Shown here: in pieces, positions 1,279-12,331 of the stretch
Layout: each line of letters begins with the position of its first letter
How positions within the stretch are numbered: the stretch's first letter is position 1
NCBI GenBank assembly: GCA_021849525.1
Contig: JAJZSS010000002.1
Coordinates: 1 to 17,339, forward strand
DNA length: 17,339 bases
Origin: Chloroflexota bacterium
GTDB lineage: Bacteria > Chloroflexota > Anaerolineae > Anaerolineales > UBA4823
Direction of reading: 5' to 3'
Position numbers and translations under genes: made by a program
Notes under the pieces: generated by a model
The model's input: the letters and a program-made list of their open reading frames with translations, nothing else
What the model was told of the DNA's origin: nothing
Database searches by the model: none

Positions 1279-2922
1279 TCAGGCGTGGGTCAGCGAGACA
1301 AAGATCATGGGTCTCCGCCGAGTCTTATTGAACAAGAATGATTTAACAGTTTCCTGGATATCATCCTCGATCCTGGCGGTCCCACTGCTCACTGTCTCTC
1401 GAACGAGGTCGCGAGTCTCAGCAATCAAGTCCTCGCCGCCATTCCGGGTGTAGATAAACCCACGCGTAATGATTTCCGGGTCATCGAGCAAGCGATGCGA
1501 ATACTGATCCAGGGTCAGGTTTATCAACACAAACCCATCCCTTGCCAGCGCTTCTCGCTCACGGATCACACTGGGACCAACATCGCCTACCCCATAACCA
1601 TCTACAAATACCCAGCCGCCTTTGATCCGCTCTGCCAGGCGCATTTCTCCGTTATGGAACTCAACCACCTGACCGTTTTCAATGATCGCGATATTTTCCT
1701 TGGGCACACCAATCTGCTGAGCAATCGCAGAATGCTGGTGTAAATGACGCAGCTCACCATGGATCGGAATAAAATACTTGGGCTTAACCAGGTGTAGAAG
1801 CAGTTTCATTTCTTCCTGGCTGGCGTGCCCGGAGACGTGCACCGGGGCAATCCCTTCGTAAATCACCTTCGCGCCGCGCCGGAACAGGCGATTGATGGTG
1901 CGATAGACCGTTTCCTCGTTGCCCGGGATGGGGTGCGATGAAAGGACAACGGTATCACTTGGGGTGATATCGAACTGGCGATTGGTGCCCGTGGACAGCC
2001 GGCCCATGATCGAGGTTGGCTCACCCTGGGTACCGGTACACATCAACACCACCTGATGGTGAGGCAGCTTCAGCGCCTGGTCAAGGGGAACAAGAAGATC
2101 ATCGGGTAAATCTAAATATCCCAATTTGCTGGCAATTTTGGCGTTTTCAACCATACTGGCGCCTACAAAAGCCATTTTTCGACCCTGGCGGATGGCCGCA
2201 TTACCAACTTGCTGCATGCGTGAGATCAGCGAGGCGAAGCTGGCGATGATAATCCGCCCTTTTGCATTGCGGAAGACTTCATCGAACGCTGGATCGATCA
2301 CTCGCTCAGACGGAGTCCAGCCTGGCTTATCGGCATTGGTCGAATCCGCCAACAGGGCCAACACACCCCGTCCGGCTAACTCAGCCAGCTTGGCATAATC
2401 AGTTGGCCAGTTATCGATCGGGGTATGGTCAAATTTATAATCCCCGGTATGGATCACCAGCCCGGCCGGCGTCGTTATCCCCAGACCAACACAATCCGGA
2501 ATGGAGTGGCTGACATGGAAAAATTCCACCTTGAACGGCCCGACCTGAATTGCATCCCCGGCATGCACGGTCTCCAACCTGGCTTTGCTTAATACCCCTT
2601 CCCGGGCGAGCTTGACCTCTAACAAACCGCGCGTCAACGGGGTTGCATAGATGGGCACATCGATCTCTTCAAGCACGTGTTTGATCGCCCCGGTATGATC
2701 TTCATGACCGTGGGTTACGATAATGCCGCGCACATTCTGGCGTTTATCCAGCACATATTGAAAATCGGGGATGATATAGTCGATCCCCAACATATCATTC
2801 TCGGGAAACATCATGCCGGTATCGACAATGAGGATATTCTCCCCAAATTCGTAGGCCATCATATTCTTCCCGACTTCCCCCAGTCCACCCAGGGGGATTA
2901 TTCTAAGTTTTTGATTACTCAT
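1279..2922 (-). CDS. rnj: Ribonuclease J
   Basis: This 547-residue protein is a full-length RNase J, a metal-dependent enzyme with endonuclease and 5'-3' exonuclease activity in mRNA decay and rRNA maturation. It has the metallo-beta-lactamase core: the LGGLGEVGKN opening at 11-20 and the zinc motif HGHEDHTG with His71, His73, Asp75 and His76. Further on are HTGDYKFD, the beta-CASP region with ADSTNAD and the SHPIPGNE loop, and VSGHASQEE followed by FIPIHGELRHLHQH, which supplies late metal ligands. The C-terminal domain is present. ATG 2922 is preceded by AGGAT at a workable distance and matches the usual N-terminus. It is preceded by a structured leader with its own terminator (2941-3126) and ended by the hairpin at 1235-1262. 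Which paralogue (J1 or J2) it corresponds to cannot be decided. Confidence 0.95.
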   Translation of the reverse strand: MSNQKLRIIPLGGLGEVGKNMMAYEFGENILIVDTGMMFPENDMLGIDYIIPDFQYVLDKRQNVRGIIVTHGHEDHTGAIKHVLEEIDVPIYATPLTRGLLEVKLAREGVLSKARLETVHAGDAIQVGPFKVEFFHVSHSIPDCVGLGITTPAGLVIHTGDYKFDHTPIDNWPTDYAKLAELAGRGVLALLADSTNADKPGWTPSERVIDPAFDEVFRNAKGRIIIASFASLISRMQQVGNAAIRQGRKMAFVGASMVENAKIASKLGYLDLPDDLLVPLDQALKLPHHQVVLMCTGTQGEPTSIMGRLSTGTNRQFDITPSDTVVLSSHPIPGNEETVYRTINRLFRRGAKVIYEGIAPVHVSGHASQEEMKLLLHLVKPKYFIPIHGELRHLHQHSAIAQQIGVPKENIAIIENGQVVEFHNGEMRLAERIKGGWVFVDGYGVGDVGPSVIREREALARDGFVLINLTLDQYSHRLLDDPEIITRGFIYTRNGGEDLIAETRDLVRETVSSGTARIEDDIQETVKSFLFNKTRRRPMIFVSLTHA

Positions 2923-2940
2923 ACAATTATCCTATCTAAT

Positions 2941-2982
2941 ATTAAGAAAACGAACCCCATCAGGAGTTTTCCAGCTGGGGCT
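2941..2982 (-). terminator. Intrinsic terminator in the rnj leader
   Basis: On the minus strand AGCCCCA (2982-2976) pairs with TGGGGTT (2959-2953). Inside, GGA (2972-2970) pairs with TCC (2965-2963) around an AAAC loop. CGTTTTCTTAAT follows, a fair U-rich tract. It lies only about 30 bases before the rnj ATG, so it would stop transcripts from the strong upstream promoter unless it is bypassed. Confidence 0.6.
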
Positions 2983-3114
2983 CATGTTACTGTATCCATA
3001 TTCAGATTACAACCGGGTGCGTCTAAATCTATTGATTAGGCCACCCGCCCGTTCTGGGAGCGATGTAACTTGTGATTCGCCGGGTTTCCGGCTAGCTAAA
3101 AACCTCTTACTTGT
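2941..3114 (-). ncRNA. Candidate structured leader RNA / attenuator of rnj
   Basis: Transcription from the promoter at 3121-3149 should begin near 3114 and cross about 190 bases without a convincing gene before the rnj ATG at 2922. The RNA can form hairpin A (GCCGG, AAAC loop, CCGGC; 3092-3079) and hairpin B (3047-3014), in which CGGGTG pairs with CACCCG and CTAATC pairs with GATTTAG across an AATA loop, one T bulged. A weaker hairpin uses CTG/CAG around 3005-2989. A long-range stem is possible between 3106-3094 and 2976-2964, closing these as a multi-branched fold. The 3' end is the terminator at 2953-2982. I cannot match it by eye to a known riboswitch, 6S, SRP, RNase P or tmRNA class. It could be an attenuating leader or a separate small RNA. 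Structures were paired by hand, not computed. Confidence 0.5.
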
Positions 3115-3120
3115 TGCTGG

Positions 3121-3149
3121 ATTATAGCATGCAGGACCTTATTTGTCAA
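3121..3149 (-). promoter_or_regulatory. Perfect-consensus sigma-70 promoter of the rnj leader
   Basis: On the minus strand TTGACA (3149-3144) and TATAAT (3126-3121) are separated by exactly 17 bases. Both hexamers match the housekeeping consensus fully. It sits in the gap after the groEL terminator and faces rnj; the predicted start is near 3114. No other promoter for rnj stands out. Confidence 0.85.
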
Positions 3150-3197: not shown

Positions 3198-3235
3198 AAT
3201 AAAACAGTGGAGAGCAATCGTGCTGCTCTCCACTG
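3198..3235 (-). terminator. groESL intrinsic terminator
   Basis: On the minus strand a perfect 12-bp stem, CAGTGGAGAGCA paired with TGCTCTCCACTG (3235-3205, 7-base loop), is followed by TTTTATT. It begins about 20 bases after the groEL stop codon and cleanly separates groESL from the rnj promoter. Confidence 0.9.
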
Positions 3236-5255: not shown

Positions 5256-5282
5256 TTAGCACTCAACTCGATTGAGTGCTAA
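5256..5282 (-). promoter_or_regulatory. CIRCE operator of groESL (HrcA binding site)
   Basis: TTAGCACTC and GAGTGCTAA are separated by nine bases (AACTCGATT); both arms are perfect CIRCE halves. It starts just after the predicted transcription start, so bound HrcA should block groESL transcription. hrcA itself is in this window. Confidence 0.97.
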
Positions 5283-5405: not shown

Positions 5406-6872
5406 TTAATTCCCTGGTGAATATCCATCACCAGTTGGGGTAATGGCAGGTTGAGTTCCGTTAGGTGTCACAGTCGGTGTCGAGGCAACCATGTCGCCGG
5501 TAGTCACCCCACCGGTAGAGCTACCCAGCCGGCGGCATATCCCTTCGCTGTCTTCCACAATACTCATCAAGGTGACATCATCCGGATAACCTTCCCGAAC
5601 CTGCTGCAGCACATCCAATGCCTCGCTGCAGTAATTTTCAGCCGGGCGGCTTAAAAATGCCAGCACAGTGCCGTATTCAACATAGTAATAAGCCACACTT
5701 AAACTGGACAGTGGCAGACCTTCGACATCCATGCCGCCTAATTCATTCTCCGCCGCGGTACAGGATACAACGGCGCAGCGCAATAGGGGCGTAGCGCCCT
5801 CATAGTTTCGGGCCCGGATCGAGATGATCCCCAATTGCCCATAGGTATGGGCATTGGTAGGATCAAACTCCAGCGCTTTCTGGGCATTCAGCGTGGCAGC
5901 ATAAAACTGCCCTTCCTGGGTATAGGTTTTCGCAATCTCAATATAGGGCTGTGGATTTTGCACACCGAGCTGCTCATTAATCCTGGCGGCGCGATCAAAA
6001 TAGTCCAGCGCCCGATCGGGGTTTTTAATTCCTTCGCGATAGTTTTGACCAATCCGGATATACAGAAAAGTCATATTCGGAGCCAGGTCTGCCGCTTTTT
6101 GATATTGTTGGATGGCACTGTTATATTGAGCCAGGGTCTCCAAAACGTAAGCATACACCCGGTGGGTATCCATCAAATCTGGACCCAAGGAGACTGCCTG
6201 GGCAGCGTACTTCTCAGCCTGCGCCCACTTACCTTGATCGGCAAGGATTTCAGCATAAAATGCAAGCGCCAGGGCGTTGTTCGGATCCAGCTGGAAAGCG
6301 CGTGAGGCATCCCTTTCCGCTTCCAATAACATCAACTGGCGCTCTTCATTCTGAATTAATGAGTTGAAAGCATACCAATCCTTGACGAATGCGCGGGTGG
6401 CGTAATTATTGCTGTCATCCGGCATGATCTCAATCGCTTTATCGGCAGCCGCCAGGGCACTTTTCAAGCGCTCGAGGCGCTCGGTGTCATTGCGCAGTAA
6501 TTGTGAAGAATAGGTCTGAATGCGTGCCAGCTCATTCCATGCCTGAGAGTTTTGAGGGTCCTTCTCCAGGGCTGCCTGGTAAGCCTCAATCGCATCATTT
6601 ACCGGTGGGGCACTGGTTCCAGGGATATTGTTGCTCGGATCATCAATCTTCCCCGCTGCAAAATGAGCCTGAGCCTCCAGGATATAAGAACCGGCTGTAC
6701 GGGTCGGCGTTGGGGTAGGCAAAAATAGCGGCTGGATCTGGTTGCGCTGCCGGGAGAGCAGTAACCAGACTCCAAACAAGATCAGGCTGAGCAGGAATAA
6801 GACCCGATAGAAATTCGAACCCGAACGGCGCGGGTGAAATGTTGGCTGTTTTCCAACGAGCTGTTGATCCAT
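5406..6872 (-). CDS. Membrane-anchored TPR protein, paralogue B
   Basis: This 488-residue protein has a basic N-terminus, one membrane helix at about residues 23-40, then a linker containing PLFLPTPTPTRT (48-59). A long array of TPR-like helical repeats fills about 62-365; the clearest units contain DPQNSQAWNELARIQ, DPNNALALAFYAEIL and DPTNAHTYGQLGII. The repeats predict an external protein-binding scaffold. After them comes a segment with VEGLPL (383-388), VAYYYVEYGTVLA (393-405) and two cysteines (415, 446) that is also found in the neighbour, then a Ser/Thr/Pro/Gly tail. A further pair, Cys366 and Cys371, is specific to this copy. It starts six bases after the stop of paralogue A; no good ribosome-binding site is seen, so coupling is likely. 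Partner and function are unknown to me. Confidence 0.85.
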   Translation of the reverse strand: MDQQLVGKQPTFHPRRSGSNFYRVLFLLSLILFGVWLLLSRQRNQIQPLFLPTPTPTRTAGSYILEAQAHFAAGKIDDPSNNIPGTSAPPVNDAIEAYQAALEKDPQNSQAWNELARIQTYSSQLLRNDTERLERLKSALAAADKAIEIMPDDSNNYATRAFVKDWYAFNSLIQNEERQLMLLEAERDASRAFQLDPNNALALAFYAEILADQGKWAQAEKYAAQAVSLGPDLMDTHRVYAYVLETLAQYNSAIQQYQKAADLAPNMTFLYIRIGQNYREGIKNPDRALDYFDRAARINEQLGVQNPQPYIEIAKTYTQEGQFYAATLNAQKALEFDPTNAHTYGQLGIISIRARNYEGATPLLRCAVVSCTAAENELGGMDVEGLPLSSLSVAYYYVEYGTVLAFLSRPAENYCSEALDVLQQVREGYPDDVTLMSIVEDSEGICRRLGSSTGGVTTGDMVASTPTVTPNGTQPAITPTGDGYSPGN

Positions 6873-6878
6873 ATCTGA

Positions 6879-8114
6879 TTAAGGCGTGGGAGTCGCCTCC
6901 CCTTCGGCATTTTCAGGGGTAGCTTCAAGTGTTTCGGGCGGATTCTCAAAGTTTTGTTGGCAAAGCTCCAGGCCGGCATTGGCATTAAAGATGGCGATCT
7001 CATCGCCCTGTAAATTGTTTAATAATGCCTGAAAGACCGGTACTGCCAGGGTACACTGGTTGGCGCGGGCCAGGGCAAATCCATAATACCAGTAATACTC
7101 TGCCACCCGACCGTACTCCAGCGGCAAGCCTTCGACAGCCTGTCCATCAGCGGTCGTACCACCCCGCACCGCCAGTTCTAATTCTGGGATCGCTTTGCTA
7201 TATTCTTCATTTTTGTAATGCATGATCCCAAGGTTACCGTGCAGGTTTGGATTTTCTGGTTCCACTTTGACAGCTTCTTCAGCATATTGTGCAGCCTGGC
7301 GGTAGCGCCCATCGGCAAAATAGGCGCGGGCAATTTCTGTCAGCGCGACGGTATCTTGAGGATTCAAGGCATAAGCCGCCAGCAGCGATTCTTCTGCCAG
7401 GCTATAGTCCCCCTGGGCCTTGTAAGCCACACCCAGATAGAGGTGGATATCAGCAATGTTTTTATTGATTGCGAGGGCCGCTTTGAACTCCTCGATAGCC
7501 TCATCCACGTTGTTCGTATTTAATAATACGATGCCCCGTGCCCGGTGTACTTCGAGGAGCGTATTATCGAGATCGCGTGCCAGGCGCGACTCTTCCCCGG
7601 CCCTATCCACCAGCTCAAAATCATTCTGGTTGATCAAGATCTCGGCATAATAGGCATGCGCCAGAGCGTTATTCGGGTCTAAATCCAGAGCCTTACGAAT
7701 AGCCAGCTCCGCTTCGCCGTATTTGCCTTGAAATCCTAGCGCCCAGCCTTGTACTGCATGGGCTAATGAATTATTGGGGTTTTTCAACAGGGCGTTCTGA
7801 GTATTCTCAATTGCCTCATCATACTGCCCGGCAAATACCTGCAAGCGGGCCAGGCTGATAAAAGTCGCTACATTCATCGGATCTACATTAATGGCCGACT
7901 TGTAAGCGGCGATTGCCAAACTGATCTTCCCCGACCGGTACAACTCGTCGGCTTCGGATAAGTAAGACTCCGGGCTCTGGGTAGGGGTTGGCGTTGGAAT
8001 GAACAGAGGCGGTGTGGCAGGAACAACGACCTGGTTGATATAAAGGAGGATAGCAATTACCGCGAGCAGTAAGGCTATGCGAAAGAAACTTGGGCGGCGA
8101 GTTCGCCGTGTCAT
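6879..8114 (-). CDS. Membrane-anchored TPR protein, paralogue A
   Basis: This 411-residue protein has an Arg-rich start (MTRRTRRPSFFR), one membrane helix at about 12-29, a linker containing PLFIPTPTPTQS (37-48), and about eight TPR-like repeats over 49-315. Clear units are DPMNVATFISLARLQ, NPNNSLAHAVQGWAL, DPNNALAHAYYAEIL and EPENPNLHGNLGIMH. It then has VEGLPL (327-332), an AEYYWYYGFALAR segment (338-350), Cys354 and Cys385, and a Glu/Thr/Pro tail ending in ATPTP. The positive-inside rule places the repeats outside the membrane. ATG 8114 is preferred over ATG 8141 because AGAGGAAG at 8132-8125 lies ten bases before it, and the predicted transcription start is near 8141. It is the first gene of a two-gene operon with paralogue B. 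I recognise the architecture but not a named family. Confidence 0.85.
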   Translation of the reverse strand: MTRRTRRPSFFRIALLLAVIAILLYINQVVVPATPPLFIPTPTPTQSPESYLSEADELYRSGKISLAIAAYKSAINVDPMNVATFISLARLQVFAGQYDEAIENTQNALLKNPNNSLAHAVQGWALGFQGKYGEAELAIRKALDLDPNNALAHAYYAEILINQNDFELVDRAGEESRLARDLDNTLLEVHRARGIVLLNTNNVDEAIEEFKAALAINKNIADIHLYLGVAYKAQGDYSLAEESLLAAYALNPQDTVALTEIARAYFADGRYRQAAQYAEEAVKVEPENPNLHGNLGIMHYKNEEYSKAIPELELAVRGGTTADGQAVEGLPLEYGRVAEYYWYYGFALARANQCTLAVPVFQALLNNLQGDEIAIFNANAGLELCQQNFENPPETLEATPENAEGEATPTP

Positions 8115-8147
8115 GGACCATTTACTTCCTCTAAGATACATAGGCGC

Positions 8148-12304: not shown

Positions 12305-12331
12305 TTAGCACTCTCGTGCCGAGAGTGCTAA
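12305..12331 (+). promoter_or_regulatory. CIRCE operator of the dnaK operon
   Basis: TTAGCACTC and GAGTGCTAA flank nine bases (TCGTGCCGA), both arms perfect. It lies only 15 bases before the hrcA ATG, so the same inverted repeat would also be a hairpin in the mRNA close to the start codon. This gives hrcA autoregulation. Confidence 0.97.

Follow-up and report, generated by a model that had tools for sequence, protein, structure and literature searches.

RNase J is a central 5′-to-3′ RNA-decay enzyme in many bacteria, and its gene, rnj, is preceded in the Chloroflexota locus described here by a long leader with a predicted terminator. Among the closest described systems, feedback by mRNA decay is known for Escherichia coli rne, and also for pnp and rnc (PMC3997798), and Bacillus subtilis rny is likewise autoregulated by mRNA decay, with cleavages that lie partly in the coding region (PMC10303841). 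Of these, rne and rny offer the likeness of ribonuclease genes controlled through their own mRNA leaders; they differ in acting via mRNA decay, whereas the rnj leader carries a terminator-like hairpin. Synechocystis rne is a ribonuclease gene whose 5′ UTR is a site of premature transcription termination, with calculated values of ~95.9% of polymerases in unstressed cells and ~65.3% under UV (PMC10989929). That gene is cyanobacterial and encodes RNase E rather than RNase J.

Two further systems share the anatomy rather than the gene. The B. subtilis rplJL leader is an experimentally tested autogenous attenuator comprising an anti-antiterminator, an antiterminator, and a terminator (PMC4538822). 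Ahead of a housekeeping gene it combines an intrinsic terminator with structures that compete, as is proposed for the rnj leader, but the gene, the signal, and the sequence are different, and the regulator and structures of rplJL were tested by experiment whereas those of the rnj leader are predicted from sequence. UpsM, from the dcw 5′ UTR of Rhodobacter sphaeroides, is a small RNA produced by a Rho-independent terminator, with action in trans proposed (PMC5089854); the likeness is a long 5′ UTR with a terminator, in another operon and another phylum. A survey of 104 motifs has the word "Chloroflexi" twice, for Chloroflexi-1 and pan, and "ribonuclease" not at all (PMC2864571). Among the best-ranked matches in the open-access literature, taken by their titles and the starts of their abstracts and including few subscription journals, there was no terminator-bearing rnj leader and, within the same scope, no such leader RNA in Chloroflexota. 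Rfam 15 at gathering thresholds matched no family in the window or in 20 relatives, and at E ≤ 10 the window gave chance-level matches only. With no Rfam match, the rnj leader looks like a new RNA family, most likely doing a known kind of job, attenuation.

Anatomy of the rnj leader

The window, the whole stretch of 17,339 nucleotides analyzed here, lies in an assembly of 2.6 Mb that is 68% complete. On its minus strand, a groES-like ORF (its place before groEL judged by eye) is followed by groEL, a terminator-like hairpin, the promoter, a leader of ~190 nt, and rnj (Table 1). The 26 named relatives of this rnj come from metagenome-assembled Chloroflexota, most of them labeled as Anaerolineae or one of its subgroups, and share 58 to 80% identity over the best segment. 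The original prediction had placed a perfect-consensus promoter, the strongest of the window, about 190 bases before an RNase gene, and on both points it was borne out: the window has no other full-consensus match to the promoter, and 200 shuffles gave none; its −10 element ends 198 nt before the ATG, and the ORF that follows matches TIGR00649. The hairpin behind groEL, absent from that prediction, is strong and distinct from the one discussed next.

Table 1. Coordinates of features in and around the rnj leader of the window
Feature	Position	Strand	Evidence or remark
rnj, RNase J family ribonuclease, 547 aa	1279..2922	−	TIGR00649, 597 bits vs cut-off 400; ATG at 2922
Likely Shine-Dalgarno sequence, AGGA	2930..2933	−	7 nt before rnj ATG; sequence and inference
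U-rich tail of T, GUUUUCUU	2944..2951	−	First two bases can pair into stem
T, terminator-like hairpin, AUGAGCCCCA ... UGGGGUUCGU enclosing GCUGGAAAACUCCUGA	2950..2985	−	−19.4 kcal/mol, 2/200 shuffles; terminator scan
13-pair stem of the original prediction	3014..3047	−	Folds with bulges, z −1.85, 9/200 shuffles
H1 hairpin, GCCGG-AAAC-CCGGC	3079..3092	−	−8.5 kcal/mol, 1/200 shuffles as stable
5′ segment GAGGUUUUUAGCU, possible partner of T loop side AGCUGGAAAACUC	3094..3106	−	Duplex −11.2 kcal/mol
Promoter TTGACA-N17-TATAAT, extended −10 (TGC before TATAAT)	3121..3149	−	12/12
Terminator-like hairpin behind groEL, separating groEL from the rnj unit	3205..3235	−	−22 kcal/mol, 0/200 shuffles; terminator scan

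The reading of the whole region changes with a second terminator-like hairpin, T, which the original prediction had overlooked: a likely stop signal stands between the strong promoter and rnj, 28 nt from the ATG when counted from the last base before the run of T residues. Counterparts of T are present in relatives. A stricter terminator pattern found no second copy in the window's own genome; this pattern was written from the window's own T, so its uniqueness speaks to the lack of a second copy and to nothing else. The idea that CCCGGYCGG terminators are a general trait of these genomes was dropped. The pattern, searched in 41 genomes, matched in 13; in six of these (G044, G043, G023, G007, G014, and G012) the matches are the rnj loci by their coordinates, and the other seven genomes gave 9 matches, against 13 for a backward control. 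In six of these seven genomes the matches lie away from rnj; G051 could not be placed relative to rnj. At the f8 loci L079, L084, L088, and L171, a second hairpin, CCCTC...GAGGG, lies between the main terminator and rnj, with T-rich stretches behind it in some loci; it is possibly a second stop signal.

The remainder of the leader had been predicted to form several good hairpins, a description that suits H1 and not the 13-pair stem. Hairpins stand at the H1 position in many relatives, judged by eye. The stem at 3047-3014 is unremarkable, folding mildly better than shuffles. It sits inside a variable insert closed by GUUAC/GUAAC (3069-3065/2990-2986), and no counterpart was seen by eye in relatives, where the segment varies in length and sequence. 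The closing stem itself, which reads GUUUGAA/UUCAAAC in L010 and L011, was not kept as a shared element, its homology not being clear. With T included, the window's leader has a fold z of −3.08 (3/200 shuffles as good). Over 64 leaders, the mean z is −1.66 for whole leaders including T and −0.58, a stability slightly above that of shuffles, for the first 75 nt before T. 6S RNA and SRP RNA were considered as possible identities of the leader and set aside as having no support from Rfam.

The neighborhood holds other features of note in their own right. Perfect inverted repeats of the CIRCE type, of the form TTAGCACTC-N9-GAGTGCTAA, occur at 5256-5282 and 12305-12331 of the window, one upstream of the groES-like ORF and the other upstream of hrcA, which is also encoded within the window (TIGR00331, 296 bits). 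Together the repeats and hrcA are an ordinary HrcA heat-shock regulon. Beside groESL, at 5406-8141, lie two neighboring repeat-rich proteins that look TPR-like and membrane-anchored by eye.

Recurrence and linkage to rnj in the Anaerolineales

A DNA search of 61 genomes with the window's leader matched its own genome alone, and conservation was therefore sought by position before rnj. Searches for rnj, with the window's own genome included each time, located the gene in 32 of 38 family genomes (E ≤ 1e-60), in 280 of 301 genomes from the order (E ≤ 1e-100), and in 78 of 81 sampled across the phylum (E ≤ 1e-60). Removal of duplicates and of two regions without a start codon left 144 upstream regions, not all of them phylogenetically independent. 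The 300 nt before rnj hold a hairpin of −12 kcal/mol or lower followed by a T-rich tail in 116 of the 144 (antisense, 53; dinucleotide shuffles, 27, 24, and 25), a count that can include terminators of upstream genes. The promoter is conserved as well: over the whole collected region, 60 of the 144 have a best match of 11 or 12 of 12 positions (antisense, 4; shuffled, 2), and in 91 the best match reaches 10 of 12 or more together with TGn (antisense, 4; shuffled, 0).

Hand curation retained 93 of these regions and left out 51 that had no recognizable unit or in which T or the leader start was uncertain. The distance from the end of T to the rnj ATG in the curated set has a median of 79 nt and is at most 45 nt in 14 regions, the window among them. 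Where at least 55 nt follow T (73 regions), promoter-like sites matching at least 10 of 12 positions occur there in 2 regions (shuffled mean, 3.6) and those matching at least 9 of 12 in 19 (shuffled, 14.8). On these counts, rnj appears to depend on read-through of T.

The order of elements in many Anaerolineales is a strong promoter, a 5′ hairpin H1, T, and then rnj. A conserved structured leader before rnj, as the original prediction had it, is thus supported and extends beyond this genome. A recognizable unit is missing in some lineages (e.g., L014, L022, L025, L030, and the loci of family f5). L033 has a similar promoter at 35 nt from rnj, and no leader separates the two. For the phylum sample, 25 of 29 upstream regions were inspected, and by eye none of the 17 from outside the Anaerolineales showed the promoter-hairpin-terminator unit. 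Three of the latter (L203, L204, and L206), and perhaps also L210, carry a hairpin upstream of rnj that lacks a U tract, and in several a coding sequence appears to extend nearly to rnj. The leader accordingly looks like a feature of the order Anaerolineales, sampling elsewhere being thin.

The association with rnj is close. R1, a covariance model built from seven sequences of the f12 leader, had matches in 60 of 100 f12 genomes at E ≤ 1 and in 41 of 100 at E ≤ 0.01. At its 30 best loci, rnj lies directly downstream in 29 (22 of 23 when the model's own seven are removed), and nine weaker matches (G191, G253, G287, G279, G247, G265, G241, G208, and G223) are also just upstream of rnj; the weaker matches beyond those nine were placed relative to rnj in part. 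In genus g32, the L078 leader matches 8 of 11 genomes, and comparison of coordinates puts all eight just upstream of rnj. The sole leader away from rnj among the 30 best R1 loci and the eight matching g32 genomes is L243 (G186, 1606-3106), ~2 kb upstream with two ORFs between. One of these ORFs is of no recognized family; the other looks transposase-like. This natural insertion parts the leader from rnj and offers a possible natural test of rnj expression without its leader.

Compensatory change and leader-T complementarity

Structures were compared in 30 aligned f12 leaders fitted to a model that contains H1 and T. Standard pairs fill 100% of H1 cells in this alignment, and both sides of the helix change at all five of its pairs (variants include CUGCC/GGCAG, CGACG/CGUCG, and CGGCG/CGCCG, among others). 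The outer stem of T has two-sided changes at five of six pairs, with 81.2% of cells paired. Sliding the partners by 1 to 3 columns lowered pairing from 90.8% to 33 to 50%. None of 500 column shuffles equaled the percentage paired, the covariation score, or the count of cells changed on both sides; the number of pairs with two-sided changes was reached by 25 of 500 and that of pair types by 57 of 500. Fitting the alignment to a model with H1 and T makes the pair counts lean toward these two elements; compensation in H1 is plain also in the unfitted alignment A1. As to the helices that the original prediction had put forward for covariation, compensatory change in f12 is thus found in H1, as in the stem of T, so that the lack of helix conservation that would have counted against the prediction does not hold for these two; the 13-pair stem has no counterpart that we could see.

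A long-range pair outside the model joins GUUGACUU, before H1, to AAGUCAGC, in the T loop; 91.7% of its cells are paired in f12, with one-sided wobble changes at four of eight pairs and no two-sided change. The T loop itself, CGCGAGCAAGUCRGC, is almost invariant in most of the f12 leaders L221-L250, while both surrounding stems change. A nearly invariant loop between changing stems suggests that the loop is read as sequence, by the leader's 5′ end or by a protein. It may also bear some likeness to rRNA.

Complementarity of the T loop to the 5′ part of its leader seems to take family-specific forms. Examples, given as leader 5′ part/T loop, are ACGGCC/GGCCGU in f9 (L077), CCUGCCG/CGGCAGG in L140, UACCGGCCG/CGGCCGGUA in L158, ACCGGCCA/UGGCCGGU in L156, and GCCGAUU/GGUCGGU in L027. 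Whether a leader matches its own T more closely than it matches the T of other leaders was examined by permutation. For leader nt 1 to 75 against the T loop, the mean was −15.37 with the leader's own T and −13.93 with permuted ones (n = 97; 0/5,000 permutations as good), and a thinned set of 64 dissimilar leaders gave z = −3.98 (0/5,000). The controls gave z = 0.04 and −0.63 with reversed leaders, and with the last 60 nt they gave z = 0.70 and 1.19. A version of the test built on the inner 5′ arm returned z values of −5.23 and −4.31; its controls taken upstream of the promoter or after T carried no signal (−0.79 to 0.09), and its reversed controls carried weak signals (−1.5 to −2.6), probably because GGCCGG reads alike backwards. 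Permutations within families were not significant in the T-loop test (f1, 380/5,000; f14, 305/5,000; no trend in f8, f9, or f12, and in f8 a reversed control that fits better than the real leader), and the complementarity is therefore mainly a between-family signal. In the window, the duplex of GAGGUUUUUAGCU with AGCUGGAAAACUC is no better than chance, shuffled pre-H1 segments being as good in 246 of 2,000 cases; 16 of 96 other T loops fit this segment as well, and 65 of 96 other loops are a better fit to the window's 75-nt leader than the loop of its own T.

Proposed mechanism and competing explanations

The promoter and the terminator-like hairpin both lie upstream of rnj on the same strand, and the combination of a strong promoter, no clear second promoter, T at the gene's door, and a complementary 5′ strand is the anatomy of an attenuator. 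We are fairly confident that the region is a transcription attenuator of rnj. In the sequence of events that we propose, RNA polymerase would start at the very strong promoter and make the leader; by default, H1 would form first, after which T would halt the majority of transcripts shortly ahead of rnj. This default is the likely one since H1 is made first and, alone, would leave T free. In the alternative state, H1 and the segment preceding it, together the first ~75 nt of the leader, would pair with T at its loop and inner half. Any event that opens H1 or releases the 5′ segment would promote this pairing, which may either prevent T or lock it as a pseudoknot, the two states yielding different amounts of rnj mRNA. 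This full model, with leader pairing as the alternative state, seems to us reasonably likely, and for the pairing as a switch the balance tips slightly in favor. That T terminates in vivo, that leader pairing switches it, and the direction of the switch are all things that we infer from the sequence.

As to the signal, RNase J itself is a plausible guess by analogy with the leaders of other ribonucleases, offered tentatively: surplus enzyme binding or trimming the nascent leader would let T win, giving feedback. A more specific and rather unlikely form is a self-metering switch in which the nascent leader would be RNase J's own test substrate. When plentiful, the enzyme would bind or trim the 5′ segment or H1, the partner strand of the T loop would be lost, and rnj would be off; when it is busy or scarce, the 5′ strand would capture the T loop and rnj would be read. 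If true, this would be autogenous attenuation of a ribonuclease via cotranscriptional RNA processing, kept across an order.

The same elements could be read otherwise. A promoter, an RNA of ~80 to 190 nt, and a terminator might constitute an independent small RNA gene that merely precedes rnj and acts in trans or on rnj mRNA, or an RNA that is both leader and small RNA, for which Rhodobacter UpsM is a precedent (PMC5089854). The unit's own strong promoter and terminator and the nearly invariant T loop in f12 agree with this. The original prediction gave it standing as well, and we now find it unlikely: the RNA adjoins rnj at 29 of 30 loci and in 8 of 8 matching g32 genomes, the exception is parted from the downstream rnj by 2 kb that include a transposase-like ORF, and no clear separate rnj promoter follows T. 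Promoter and terminator would be enough on their own if the terminator were simply leaky, constitutive, and unregulated, holding rnj at a fixed low level despite the strong promoter, but that account, which we think quite unlikely, gives no obvious reason why the leader-T complementarity and the compensatory change in H1 should be kept. In post-transcriptional autoregulation like that of E. coli rne, RNase J would bind the leader and promote decay of its own mRNA; such feedback has known parallels in rne, pnp, and rnc (PMC3997798) and in rny (PMC10303841). The original prediction had pointed to such control; its conserved structured leader stands, and the evidence points to attenuation rather than to rne-type decay, an improbable alternative here that leaves the terminator and U tract unexplained and for which no Rfam family was matched.

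Two explanations fare worse still. A structured leader with a terminator is what a metabolite riboswitch would present, and the original prediction had named one as a possibility. By inspection, leaders of different families share an architecture and not a core, with sequence, length, and insert varying greatly (some stretches are nearly invariant within f12). With no core seen across families, no Rfam match, and a tie to one housekeeping gene, a riboswitch is very improbable. Attenuation coupled to translation of a leader peptide is the most improbable of the readings: a start codon with at least 5 codons stands behind an SD-like stretch in 10 of 97 leaders, and in those 10 only, and no ORF is conserved by eye in the f12 alignment, so the leader peptide is not supported.

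In summary, attenuation of rnj remains the reading that we prefer, and the leader unit probably acts as a switch that sets how much RNase J is made. If this is right, the leader would constitute a new RNA family across an order and would provide a directly testable model of how an RNA-decay enzyme is controlled in a phylum that has been little studied.
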